Assembly (NCBI GenBank): GCA_018389105.1 | Contig: JACATO010000609.1 | Coordinates: forward strand, 372,001-436,000 | Origin: Nautilus pompilius | Taxonomy: Eukaryota; Mollusca; Cephalopoda; Nautilida; Nautilidae | Length of the DNA: 64,000 nt | Reading direction: 5' to 3' | In this document: piece by piece, positions 33,443-63,124 of the stretch | Layout of the letters: every line of letters starts with the position of its first letter | Numbering within the stretch: the first letter of the stretch is position 1 | Program-made: the position numbers and the translations under genes | Notes under the pieces: model-generated | Database searches by the model: none | What the model saw: only the letters and a program-made list of their open reading frames with translations | What the model was told of the DNA's origin: nothing

Positions 33443-34045
33443 AGCTTACAGAGCTGTCAGATGTCTGTTTTCCAGCAGAGATACCTGTGAGCTAAATTTC
33501 TCTCCAAAACTGCATACCACTTGTGAAGTTTTTGTATGGCATTGCATGTAATGTAGAGAGGACGATTTGTTTTATTTTCCATGACAGAGATTTGTTGTGA
33601 GGCTCTTGGGCTACAAGGGCCTTCTGTAATCTCATCCATAAATCTGTAGAGACAGGATCTGCGGTTGATGCACTGCAACCATGACACTTGACTACACCTG
33701 TGGAAGTTGTAAAAATTCAGCATGTGTTGTCTTAAATCAGACAGGGCAATTTCTGTGGAGAATGCAGCAGCACCCATCAAGTTGCCAGGTCTACTGGCCA
33801 GCCCCAGTGAACTGTGGAAGGTGATGGATGGGCTAGACACTGAAACTGCTGCTTCCTGCTGATCCGGCAAAGCCATTGAGCTTACTGTAATGAGTTAAAC
33901 CAGTTCAGAAAAATGTTAATAAAATTTTGTTTCAATAAACACGTTCAAGTCATTTTTTTACTGTTTTGTTACAGTTACACATTGATTTCAGAAGAAAGTC
34001 GACTATTTTTAAAATCGACATGGTTATTGTGACGTGCTGTCACAA
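33443..34045. repeat. Unclassified interspersed repeat, copy 1
   Basis: This about 600-bp segment is roughly three-quarters identical to 56871-57440 in the same orientation. Shared anchors include TCATCCATAAAT, AAATCAGACAGGGCAAT, CCAGTGAACTGTGGAAG and GTTACACATTGATTTCAGAA. On the - strand an open frame (33876-33457) encodes F-H-S-S-L-G, P-G-N-L-M-G, I-A-L-S-D-L-R-Q-H, C-L-Y-R-F-M-D-E and K-L-H-K-W-Y-A-V-L-E-R-N. Copy 2 keeps these motifs with many silent or conservative changes, so the family probably derives from a coding sequence. I do not recognise the protein or the element class. Confidence 0.8.
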
Positions 34046-56870: not shown

Positions 56871-57440
56871 AGCTTACAGAGGTGGTCTGTTTGCCTTCTG
56901 AGATGACTGCAAACAGAGTTTCTTTCCAAGATCGCATAGCACTTGTGAAGTTTATCTATAGCAATGGATGTTGTAAGAGCAACTTTACCTGCCTTTTGTG
57001 GTGATGGAGATGTTTGTTGAACCCATGTAGCCCAAGGGCCTTGCCTATTCTCATCCATAAATTTGAAGAGACAGGTTTTGCGGCTAGTGTACCATGACCA
57101 GCATGCCCACCTATATCTGTAGGTGTTGTCATAAATCAGACAGGGCAATCTTCATGGAGAATGGAGTCCCCATTAAGTTGCCAGGTTTACTGGCCTACCC
57201 CAGTGAACTGTGGAAGTTGATGGGCCAGACACTAAAGCTGCTTCCATACAAAATGTGCTTTCTAGCCCAGAGAAGCCATTGGACTTAATATAACAAGTTA
57301 AAAATTTTATTAACATTTTGCTGAACTGGTTTTCAATAAATTGGTATTGGTAACTCAATTTTTTGTTTTCTATTACAGTTACACATTGATTTCAGAAGAA
57401 AGTTATTTTTAATTGACATGGTTGTTTTGGTGTGATATCA
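56871..57440. repeat. Unclassified interspersed repeat, copy 2
   Basis: Same orientation and layout as 33443-34045. The - strand open frame 57148-56843 carries C-L-F-K-F-M-D-E, Q-G-P and K-L-H-K-C-Y-A-I-L-E-R-N, parallel to copy 1. The frame around F-H-S-S-L-G and P-G-N-L-M-G is also recognisable just upstream, in another phase. Terminal sequence ends near GACATGGTTGTTTTGGTGTG, parallel to GACATGGTTATTGTGACGTG in copy 1. No inverted repeats or target duplications were evident. It lies only about 500 bases upstream of the exon at 57964. Confidence 0.8.
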
Positions 57441-57963: not shown

Positions 57964-58182
57964 GTTTACGTCTTCACAATGGAAGCTCCTGCAACATTGT
58001 TCCTACATTCACATCTCCATTCATAATGGCAAAAGTTGAATCCACAGTCAAAGGGTATGGCTGCCACAGTAATCAGTCTACGAATGCTTCTCAAGAAGTC
58101 CATATTATAAGTCTTGTCCACAATGGGCGACAAGCAAAAAATTCTGCTGATGTTTACTTGGAGATTGTTCCTTATACAAAAG
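57964..58182 (+). CDS. Exon of a betaglycan (TGF-beta receptor III)-like gene, N-terminal orphan domain part 1
   Basis: A tract TTTTTTTTCTTTCTAG precedes the exon and AAAAG/GTGAGT follows it. Only one of three frames is open across all 219 nt (codons start at 57966), giving a symmetric phase 1-1 exon of 73 codons. The peptide has G-S-S-C-N-I-V-P-T, then V-E-S-T-V-K-G-Y-G-C, then S-Q-E-V-H-I-I-S-L, and ends V-Y-L-E-I-V-P-Y-T-K. This parallels, in order and spacing, the mature N-terminus of vertebrate betaglycan as I recall it (LCELSP, MESFTVLSGC, PQEVHVLNL, VTLHLNP) and its internal repeat (EEVHIIEL, DITIDIRP). Betaglycan is a single-pass cell-surface co-receptor that presents TGF-beta family ligands through this domain. 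Three N-x-S sequons (NGS, NQS, NAS) fit an extracellular location. The ligand in this organism is unknown. Confidence 0.78.
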
Positions 58183-60789
58183 GTGAGTAGAACATTCCAG
58201 ATCATTTATGTGAAGAAAAAAAATGGCAGAACAAACCACATGCTTAGGTGGTACCCATTTGTGTATGGGTTTATTAAGAATGCTTTTAAGTTGTCAGTTC
58301 TGTTTTTTTATTCTCTGATCTGGTGGTCTTTTTATTCAGCTGTTCAGAAAAAATGTATACAAATTTGTTGAAACTAAATACAGACAAACTACAAATGAGA
58401 AAAGAAAGATCATAATCTTCCAGTGAGAGAGCACATTTGCTTGGCATTTTGGTTATTTGTGCAGTGTTTGTTCTCAAGAAAATACGTTGCTAATAATTGA
58501 GTAAAAGGGCATGAACCCAGTTGTTGTGAAAAAATGTTTGACTGTCCATGCCATCCCAAAAAACAAAATAAAATGAAGTAGGTGAGGAAAGGTGATGGGA
58601 GAAACAGAATGCATTTTGGCCAGTTGTGTGTATTGTTAAAGAAATAGTTAAAATGTGAGATGTCATATTTTAGCTATCACATTTCTCAGTTTAAAAAAAA
58701 AATTTGTTTGCATACGTGTATTTATTTATTTTATCTAATTATTTGTTGTTAACTTCTTCCATTTTTCTCAAGCTTTGTCGAAATGAATTTGTATGCAAGA
58801 AAAAGGTGGGGAATGTATATTTGGAAGATGCTTTGATTGATATTTCCATATGCTTTTTAAAAATGTAATTGGTAAGATGTAGAAACATGTTGCAAAGAGC
58901 ATCCATCAGAACTGAAGTCCAAAGTGACACAAAAAATTAAATTTAAAATATAATAATTTTAATCCTATAACTAACAAAAATATTAATTGCTTAACTAACT
59001 AATTACTTGGGAGTAAAAATATGCTTCAAATCAAAACTGAGTAAGGATTAAATAATAATAATTTTAATTTCAGCATATTCTTTTAAAACTTGTACAACAA
59101 AGAAATGGTAAAGGTAAAGAGACTTAGGTGCTGATCTGGGGAAATATTATTTTTGGGTTTGTAAATCTCTAACATTTGCATAGTGCAGATGTATTTTCAT
59201 GGTGAGATTAATCAGCAATAATCTAAGCAGAAATACTACAGAAGAATTCACACAATTACAGAAGAGTCTAAATGATGCTTTTTGCAATAGTAAAATTGGA
59301 AATGTCAGCAAGTTAGTCAGCAATCAATGATGCTCATTGTACCTTTGATCTTAGTTTGTGGGGATGATGCTGCCTGTCCACATTTGGACCATTTTATTTG
59401 AACATTTTTTAAAGTTTTTGTTTTTAGTATGAAGTCTTTCTTGTGGGGGATAAATTGGTTAAAACAAAATTTAAATTAAATTTTGAAAGGTTTTAAAAAT
59501 AAATAATACACTATCAGTTACTTGAAACATTCATAACTTTATGGAATGTCTTCAGGCATTTTATTCTCTTTTTGTTTAACTGTATGTCAGCATTAAAGAA
59601 AATAATAATTTAATTGGAAAAAAAATAGTCCCCAAAACTCTAGATTTTAAAAAGGAATGAATAGAGCTAGGAGCTTTTTTTAAAAACTTATTACAAATTT
59701 TGACAATGGCTTTAACTAGATATAGTTCTTCCAAAAATACTTTTTTTTTGTTCTTTATATTTATTATTATTATTAAATTGTTTGCAATACTTGGCCTACC
59801 TGATAATTTTGTGATACTTGTTACAAAGTGTACTAAAAATTATTGTGATATAAAGAAAAACCAGACATTATTATTTGTAATTGAAAAAATTGGACAGCCT
59901 AAGCCATGTATCTAAATTGGTAAATAGAGTTTAATATTTTCATATCCAAAGTTAGTTTGTATTTAAAAATAACAGTTATGAAACAATGCTAAAAATGCCA
60001 ATACAGTCTAAAAAGTATATCTAAAAATGTACTATAAATTAGCTTTTTAAAGTATAATTGTTCTAGGCCATCTATCTCTGTTTTTCTCTACTGTTATATA
60101 TGTTAAAGCATTTTTAAATTAGATATCCAGTAGAATTATTGAGAGTTTGTTATTATATTCACTGCTTTTATCTATTTTTTCTGCTATTATTTTTAAATTA
60201 CTTTTTCTGCAAAAAAATTTTTAATAATCTTGTTTAAGTAGTAAATCTAAAATTCCTTCTTTCCTCCCGCTTTTCTTCTTTCTTTTCTGATATATATTTT
60301 TAAAAATTATTGTTAAATGGTATGGGTCTCTTTGGCTTGGTGAGTTAGGATTTAAAATTAAAAAATTCCAGTCTTCATATTTAGATACAAGTGAGGTGCA
60401 AGTGAAATGCATAAAATGCCACAGGTATTTTTTATCTCATCTCTGTACGAGGTCCATGAAATCAACTTTGTAGAGCTCTTAACTTTGGAAATAGAACCAG
60501 CAAAGGATGCATGTTCTCATACCATCATCAGTTTCAAAATGCTTCTTCACAAAAACATTTTGTGATCCAAACAGGTAGTAGTTTTGTACAGCCAGGCCTG
60601 TATTTTAACTTGCCAGTTTGAATGGTGTATTATGTTAGTTCTGATGCATGCCTCTGGAAGCAGGCATTATCCCATACCAAATGGACCACCCTCTTCACTG
60701 ATCAAACCGGGCCTCTTGCAAACTGGCCATGTTACCTTTTACAGAATGTTAATAGTAGTATAGTAGTGTTGTACATTATTGATTGTGGT

Positions 60790-62130
60790 ACCTGTTGTTG
60801 TTGTTGTTCAGCAATTTGGTTCAGGATTTTTCTTAGTTGGGCTGCTCCCCCAGTTGGGAGATCTCCGGGAGGTCTTGCCTCTTCTACTTCTCCCAGATTG
60901 TGATGGCTGCTGTTGGGTTGGTTGCTATCATATTTGGAGGGTCATCATCACGAGGTTTGTGGTGCACACTCAGGCAGTCTTCCATCACATGTTCTGCGGT
61001 CTCCTCTCCAAGACCACATTTCCTGCAGATCATGTCTGCCGTCCGGTTGATCTTTAGGAGCCAGTATTTCAAGACTGGATGGTGGCCGCTGCGGAGCCTG
61101 TTGAGTGTTACCTGGTCTGCGCATGGAAGCTTCTCCTCTTGTCGGTTGATTGTCTCGCCTCTCTCCCCGTATACCCTTTTTAGTTCATGTTTGATCAGGG
61201 GCGGCTGCGAGTCGCCCTGCGGATCAGCGACTTCACCCAGTCGTAATGCCACTGCGTTTCCCGTTGGTCGATCACAGTGCCTTCACTCGCTTTATTGTCA
61301 ACCATTTCATTTCCACTCACCCCGCAGTGGCTGGGGCACCATGAGAAGGTGACCTGGCACTTCCTCTCGTGTAGGCGGTGTAAAAGTTCGAGGATGACTT
61401 TCTCGTCTGCATTGACCATTTGCTTTGAGGGGGTGATGTCCCTTAGTCGAAGCAGGACCGACTGGCTATCAGAGACTATTCGTGCCTTGGAGATGTCGTC
61501 ACTATTGGCGATGATTCAAAGAGCTTCCGTCAGCGGCTTCTGTTCTGCCTGGAACGAGGAGCACCATTTTCTGGAGTGGAAGGGGCATTGTTGGCTGACT
61601 GTGGGGTCATTTGGGTGGCCAGTAGTGACACCAACGCCACTACTACCATTTGCAGTACCATTTGATGCTGACCTGTCCGTGTAAATGATGGCGTCATAGA
61701 TGTCCCATTCCTTTTCCAGGGTTCGTATGGCATTATTTTTATCCACTGTTGGAACTCCCATCTTATGCCTGTCTAATTCAAAATGTGGTGAACCCGTTTC
61801 TAGCCAGGGTGGAAGGAGGCTCGGGAAAGTCTCTGTGGTACCTGTCTGTAGACAGTTGATGAAAAATATGCCTTTTATATCCCAAAACACCATGACCTTA
61901 AAATTCTTTGGGGGAGTGAACCTTAGTGCCATCACTGCACGCTGGAGGATTTTGGTGTGGAACGAAGAACCAACCTGTTTATTGAAGACCTTTAACTCTG
62001 TCACAATGGTGCTTCAGCTAAATGGAGATCGTCTAACAGGGAGTTTGTCCAGTTCTTTTTGAATGTAGTGTGCCAGCACATTGTGGAAACCCTGATGCTG
62101 CTGGAGTATTCTTTCCACACTCCTGAAAGT
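60790..62130 (-). mobile_element. 5'-truncated LINE (non-LTR retrotransposon) with RNase H domain
   Basis: The - strand frame from 62004 carries a post-RT region, then the RNase H start I-Y-T-D-R-S-A-S-N-G (family YTDGSA; the G after D is changed to R) and A-E-Q-K-P-L-T-E-A-L with the second acid. It continues past one TGA at about 61513 to V-S-D-S-Q-S-V (third acid), then S-W-C-P-S-H-C-G-V-S-G-N-E-M-V-D (fourth acid). A frameshift near 61200 leads to the C-terminal C-R-K-C-G-L-G-E-E-T-A-E-H-V-M-E-D-C finger. The frame ends near 60884, followed by a short 3' UTR and an (AAC)5 tail at about 60793-60808. RNase H after RT suggests the I/R1-type group. Truncation within the RT thumb region near 62127 is typical of incomplete reverse transcription. 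Higher G+C than the host intron suggests fairly recent insertion. Confidence 0.88.
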
Positions 62131-63001
62131 GCAACAGTAAGATGATATGCGTGTGTATGTATTATGGGCATCCATTTGTTATTTTTGTTTCACTATTGTG
62201 AGCTCTGCTAAGGTAGCACAATGGCAAAAGAAATATATTAAAATGAATCACAAGAAATATTTCTAAAAAAAAAAAAATATCCATCAAAATCAGATACCTT
62301 TGATGGGGAAAAAAACACAAATTAGTATCTCTCTATTTTTTGATGTTGCTATGCTTTAATTGCTAAGCACAGCCCCACACTCGATATTATTTAGTTAGTT
62401 AGCCCCCACTCTCCAGTACTTTAACCTGGAGACTCTCTTTTTGTCATTCTGCCTCTCCATGGAAAAAATGCTGTGGATGCCCGTGGTATATAGGTATTTC
62501 ACTCTCTCCCCACTTGCTCACTTGCATGCAATAGTTATTTGTAGCATAGGCATTTATTCCATTGATGTTTGCAGTTTATTTACTACAAATAACCTTAAAC
62601 CAAGATGTTAATTTTGATCTGCTTTAAGTCACTTTTAACAGGTGTGCGTAGGTAGCTGACCCTAATTGATCATTAAATTGGACTGTAAATTTGTAATCAG
62701 TTTTGGCACTGCTGCATGCTGTCTCTAATAAACACTGACCGCCATCTCGGTTCTAGTGTGCATCAACACTGTTTGAGCCTTTTCTGTATTCCAGTCAGTC
62801 AATAGTGGAGTTGCCATCACATGCCAAGTTGGAGGTGATTGTTGCATAGTATCTTTCCCTTGAATCACTCTCATGCATCTATACCTAATATGTGTTTGAA
62901 CCATATCTGCCTAAAATGTCTTTGTTAACTGAGAATTAATTGTACATTGATCATTACCACATTGTTTTGTTCAGATTTAAAAATTTTGATTTTCACTTGT
63001 C

Positions 63002-63007
63002 AAGTAG
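63002..63007 (+). promoter_or_regulatory. Tandem NAGNAG splice acceptor (AAGTAG)
   Basis: The exon B acceptor is AAGTAG. Cutting after the first AG or the second AG keeps the same frame and phase. It would give ...T-K-V-G-M-V-P... or ...T-K-G-M-V-P..., a one-residue difference between two predicted beta strands. NAGNAG acceptors are known to be used alternatively in animals. The upstream TTTTGATTTTCACTTGTC is a fair pyrimidine tract. Confidence 0.5.
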
Positions 63008-63124
63008 GTATGGTACCACTATCGAAGTTTGTTGTTGTTTCTTGTGATGGTAATCCGACCACCTACAAACTCAGCATCTTCTCTGCTGTAACTTACAAAA
63101 TATCCATTACCAAGCCCAGAGGAG
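63008..63124 (+). CDS. Exon of the betaglycan-like gene, N-terminal orphan domain part 2
   Basis: Joined to the G at 58182, this exon continues in frame as G-M-V-P-L-S-K-F-V-V-V-S-C-D-G-N-P-T-T-Y-K-L-S and then V-T-Y-K-I-S-I-T-K-P-R-G. In human betaglycan the matching strands, as recalled, are HHKSVVFLLNSPHPLVWHLK and, in the second repeat, LILILKCKKSVNWVIKSF. The alternation of a hydrophobic strand, a cysteine or equivalent, an aromatic (Y/W) strand and K/L agrees. The donor chosen is GGAG/GTGATA at 63125, which makes the exon 117 nt and phase 1-1 like its neighbour. That donor is weak. The frame stays open to a TAG at 63168, so a longer exon or a premature end cannot be excluded. The acceptor has a tandem alternative at 63004. 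Confidence 0.62.

Follow-up and report, generated by a model that had tools for sequence, protein, structure and literature searches.

The right-hand end of the window, by which we mean the whole stretch of 64,000 nucleotides analysed, raises the question of whether two phase-1 exons encode a betaglycan/endoglin-type orphan domain there, as an earlier note had claimed, and to which gene such a domain would belong. Betaglycan-type co-receptors are cell-surface proteins that pass growth factors to their receptors. The sequence comparisons make it likely that a betaglycan (TGFBR3)-type gene begins in the window, which would carry its 5' part on the plus strand, and leaves the window at the right end. 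The features of this region are the following:

57964..58182, plus strand: exon A, internal, entered and left in phase 1; N-terminal part of orphan-domain repeat 1.
58183..63007, plus strand: probable intron of 4.8 kb, phase 1, ending at 62974, 63004 or 63007 according to the acceptor chosen; based on the splice sites and their scores.
60884..62013, minus strand: degenerate 3' end of a LINE, bearing RNase H, in three frames, inside the intron and outside the gene proper.
63008..63124, plus strand: probable exon B, entered and left in phase 1; continues repeat 1 (GMVPLSKFVVVSC...), with alternative starts at 63005 and 62975.

The coordinates, splice dinucleotides and reading frame previously given for the two exons were confirmed, and joining exon A to exon B yields an in-frame product of 111 residues. 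Exon A is open across 72 codons in DNA of 33% GC and, at 0.40, is richer in GC than the intron between 58183 and 60700 (0.29). When scored with splice-site matrices, its near-consensus donor (AAG/GTGAGT) is equalled or bettered by just 0.08% of 3744 GT sites, and its T-rich acceptor (TTTCTAG/GTTTAC) by 2.8% of 3553 AG sites. The encoded segment contains two cysteines (Cys 9 and Cys 33), the first of them placed 8 residues after the phase-1 entry, together with an EVHIISL strand and a VYLEIVP strand. Three N-glycosylation sequons (residues 5, 36 and 40) are compatible with an extracellular protein.

The sequence comparisons show a homology of exon A to TGFBR3 that chance does not explain. A phmmer search of the PDB with the joined protein returned four matches at E ≤ 10, all of them TGFBR3 orphan domains, with a best E of 1.1e-6 that is a sum over two aligned repeats (best single stretch, E 0.016). 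The same four sequences were recovered by exon A alone (best E 1.2e-4), along with an unrelated Fc receptor chain (E 0.97), and reversed exon A gave no match at E ≤ 10. A profile built from six vertebrate TGFBR3 repeats (both repeats of three proteins) was scanned over the 2144 open frames of at least 20 residues in the whole window, and the exon A frame was the sole significant one (E 3.1e-9, the next being 1.9); it kept an E of 1.4e-8 when the profile was enlarged with two endoglin repeats. None of 1000 shuffles matched the score of exon A against repeat 1 of each of the three TGFBR3 proteins, and the corresponding z-scores are 10.1-12.9 for TGFBR3 repeat 1, 4.8-6.5 for repeat 2 and 2.2-2.7 for endoglin. 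Pfam gave no family at E ≤ 10 for either the joined protein or exon A. The structure predicted for exon A alone, with a mean pLDDT of 42.4, was unfit for a fold search.

The comparison with individual repeats supports the assignment of exon A to a betaglycan-type orphan domain that is repeat-1-like and nearer to TGFBR3 than to endoglin. Pairwise scores, on which this assignment is based in place of a tree, lie at 71-84 for repeat 1 in the three TGFBR3 proteins, at 46-55 for repeat 2 and at 33-37 for endoglin, and repeat-specific profiles gave E values of 2.9e-6 (repeat 1) and 0.014 (repeat 2). In the same table the endoglin repeats sort poorly, repeat 1 scoring best with zebrafish TGFBR3 repeat 2 (65) and repeat 2 with zebrafish TGFBR3 repeat 1 (61). 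The two repeats of vertebrate TGFBR3, with mutual scores of 32-62, are less alike than exon A and repeat 1, which suggests that the repeat duplication is older than the split of the exon A lineage from vertebrates. The suggestion that this domain preserves the undivided ancestral repeat unit is therefore rejected, since exon A does not stand at equal distance from the two repeats.

Exon B is the likely, but unproven, next exon. The claim of an orphan domain encoded by two exons stood for exon A and was weakened for exon B, which by itself scores at the level of shuffled sequence against all eight repeats of TGFBR3 and endoglin; likewise, the motif order of TGFBR3 holds over exon A, and its continuation in exon B (KFVVVSC and YKL) is suggestive and not significant alone. 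These chance-level scores favour a reading that we hold possible, although on balance doubtful, in which exon A is correct and exon B either is no exon or begins at 62975, the real next exon lying elsewhere in the intron or past 64000. The acceptor at 63008 (GTAG/GTATGG) is weak, 13% of the 3553 AG sites scoring equal or better, and is outscored by the in-frame acceptor at 62975. Ranked by profile score, the join of exon A and exon B is placed 34th, 35th, 28th and 22nd with four profiles among 83 entries (exon A alone included), and exon B comes 12th to 18th of 54 when candidates are limited to at least 30 residues, one profile placing the 63005 start higher (4th of 54, 6th of 83). In a phmmer join test against the zebrafish domain, exon B was third of 82 local candidates, slightly below those at 60396 and 58291. 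Against this reading, shuffled versions of exon B did equally well in that test in just 2 of 300 cases, and appending exon B lowers the PDB E value of exon A from 1.2e-4 to 1.1e-6, whereas appending reversed exon B brings no gain (2.6e-4). By splice score exon B is 7th of 84 candidates, and of the six above it four lie in the LINE, one is exon B itself from 62975 and one lies elsewhere (60349). With the 63008 start, the spacing between the LEIVP and FVVV strands is 10 residues, as judged by eye, and equals that of TGFBR3 repeat 1.

What the window holds around these exons bears on two further readings. The TGFBR3-profile scan of the 2144 frames brought out no exon for a second repeat, and the gene runs off the right end, which lies 876 bases past exon B. 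The ZP domain that the earlier note placed downstream found no Pfam match among 420 filtered window frames of at least 45 residues, and would be expected beyond 64000; the transmembrane part is likewise expected outside the window. Upstream, five ATG-to-donor candidates for a signal-peptide exon (two of them overlapping) were found, none convincing, and the frames tested in 1-57900 (part of the 420) gave no convincing Pfam match; this stretch may lie between genes or belong to a first intron of great length. That the window shows nothing past repeat 1 would suit a shorter or different protein with a single orphan-type repeat, for instance a secreted one lacking a ZP domain, whose cysteines pair mutually or in a dimer. 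This is unlikely: just those 876 bases are left after exon B, and a repeat-1-like exon, with a duplication that apparently precedes the vertebrate split, makes a two-repeat gene the inherited state. The same 64 kb, devoid of a confirmed further coding exon upstream or downstream, could be read as the setting of a decayed gene fragment (pseudogene), which is very unlikely in view of the open frame, near-consensus donor and raised GC content of exon A. A gene of the endoglin type would fit the homology between endoglin and TGFBR3 orphan domains (E 5.1e-9) and the phase-1 entry of exon A, which agrees with ENG intron 1. This intron lies at the front edge of the orphan domain. According to a table excerpted from PMC8070971, the human ENG intron follows c.67, one base into a codon, which is phase 1. 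The agreement in phase counts for the betaglycan-type reading as well. The absence of endoglin from the PDB matches of the join is weak evidence, since a human TGFBR3 query likewise missed endoglin at E ≤ 1. The shuffle z-scores, in which TGFBR3 repeat 1 stands far above endoglin, lead us to reject an endoglin reading of exon A (21 and 46 of 1000 shuffles reach its scores with the endoglin repeats), and an endoglin-type gene is most improbable.

The window, with 33% GC, has the look of animal DNA, and the genomic surroundings point in two directions as to the type of animal. The LINE inside the intron was recognised by an RNase_H Pfam match (E 3.5e-7) in one of 120 frames, placed at 60884..62013 by its motifs; a Cys/His knuckle is seen by eye and the coding sequence is broken over three minus-strand frames. 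RNase H-bearing LINEs are rare in vertebrates. Together with the low sequence similarity this element favours an invertebrate, and together with an identity to zebrafish repeat 1 of about one third (22 of 66 aligned positions) it argues against a TGFBR3 gene of a jawed vertebrate. The CpG observed/expected ratio of 0.28 over 1-64000 (0.22-0.40 per 8 kb, with TpG and CpA at about 1.27) counts against an invertebrate. Strong CpG depletion is typical of vertebrates and uncommon among invertebrates, and its extent throughout 1-64000 would be unexpected for the latter.

Elsewhere in the window, two direct copies of a dispersed repeat (33463-33720 and 56885-57139) are 70-75% identical and have similar minus-strand open frames, which gave no convincing Pfam family. 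Over the 420 frames, 34 Pfam families were returned at E ≤ 0.05 and RNase_H alone was convincing; Fib_alpha (0.0011, the next best) and ecTbetaR2 (0.05) were set aside as being at the level expected by chance over 420 scans. In viral contigs, sequences related to exon A and to the LINE were sought by pattern, with three matches for each and none confirmed, and the window contains no Rfam match and no tRNA.

The betaglycan-type gene proposed here would begin with a signal-peptide exon just upstream of exon A. Exon A, with exon B as its probable successor, would encode the first half of orphan-domain repeat 1, and the second repeat and then the ZP domain would follow past 64000. The two conserved cysteines of exon A may pair with those of the second repeat, an arrangement that we assume by carrying over the pairing between the repeats of endoglin. 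The product would be a membrane protein, predicted by analogy to bind ligand, that uses repeat 2 and the ZP domain to capture a TGF-beta-family ligand, which it would either present to the signalling receptors or keep away from them, the part encoded by exon A helping to form the scaffold. For betaglycan itself, excerpts of PMC11865472 describe a loop of OD1 (PNSSSAFQ) that contacts TGF-beta, the transfer of the ligand to TGFBR2 and then to TGFBR1, and glycosaminoglycan attachment in the ZP-N part, which here would fall outside the window. This loop, the main TGF-beta contact of betaglycan, falls within the second repeat in the TGFBR3 sequence.

Should the species be a protostome, the duplication of the orphan domain would predate the bilaterian split, and the question would arise of what betaglycan does without inhibin, its best-known mammalian partner. 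We put forward as tentative a protostome betaglycan, with a two-repeat orphan domain present before the protostome-deuterostome split and acting as a TGF-beta-family co-receptor without inhibin alpha or endoglin. Endoglin is not known from such an animal. Inhibin alpha is said to be absent from lower invertebrates in the excerpted text of PMC2832003. No description of a protostome betaglycan was found in the open-licence literature, as judged mainly by titles and abstract openings, and in PMC4564238 betaglycan occurs in the reference list alone.

Compared with the TGFBR3 orphan domains of human and zebrafish (PDB 7lbg, 6mzn and 9b9f), exon A keeps the order Cys, GC, QEVHII and V-x-L-x-x-x-P, and differs from vertebrate TGFBR3 by its three N-glycosylation sequons; the window yielded no repeat 2, the repeat that carries the TGF-beta contact loop. 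The endoglin orphan domain (PDB 5hzw and 5i04) has the same two-repeat plan and a phase-1 intron at its front edge, although exon A scores just slightly above shuffles against it. Betaglycan outside vertebrates is already known from the sea urchin, whose published betaglycan (TBR3) is likened here by its description: it is single copy, and a tagged form co-precipitates with the TGF-beta-family ligand Panda (PMC11239237, excerpt). Echinoderms are said to carry one TGFBR3 gene apiece (PMC10381214, excerpt). To this family, known from vertebrates and echinoderms, exon A adds a partial and divergent member.
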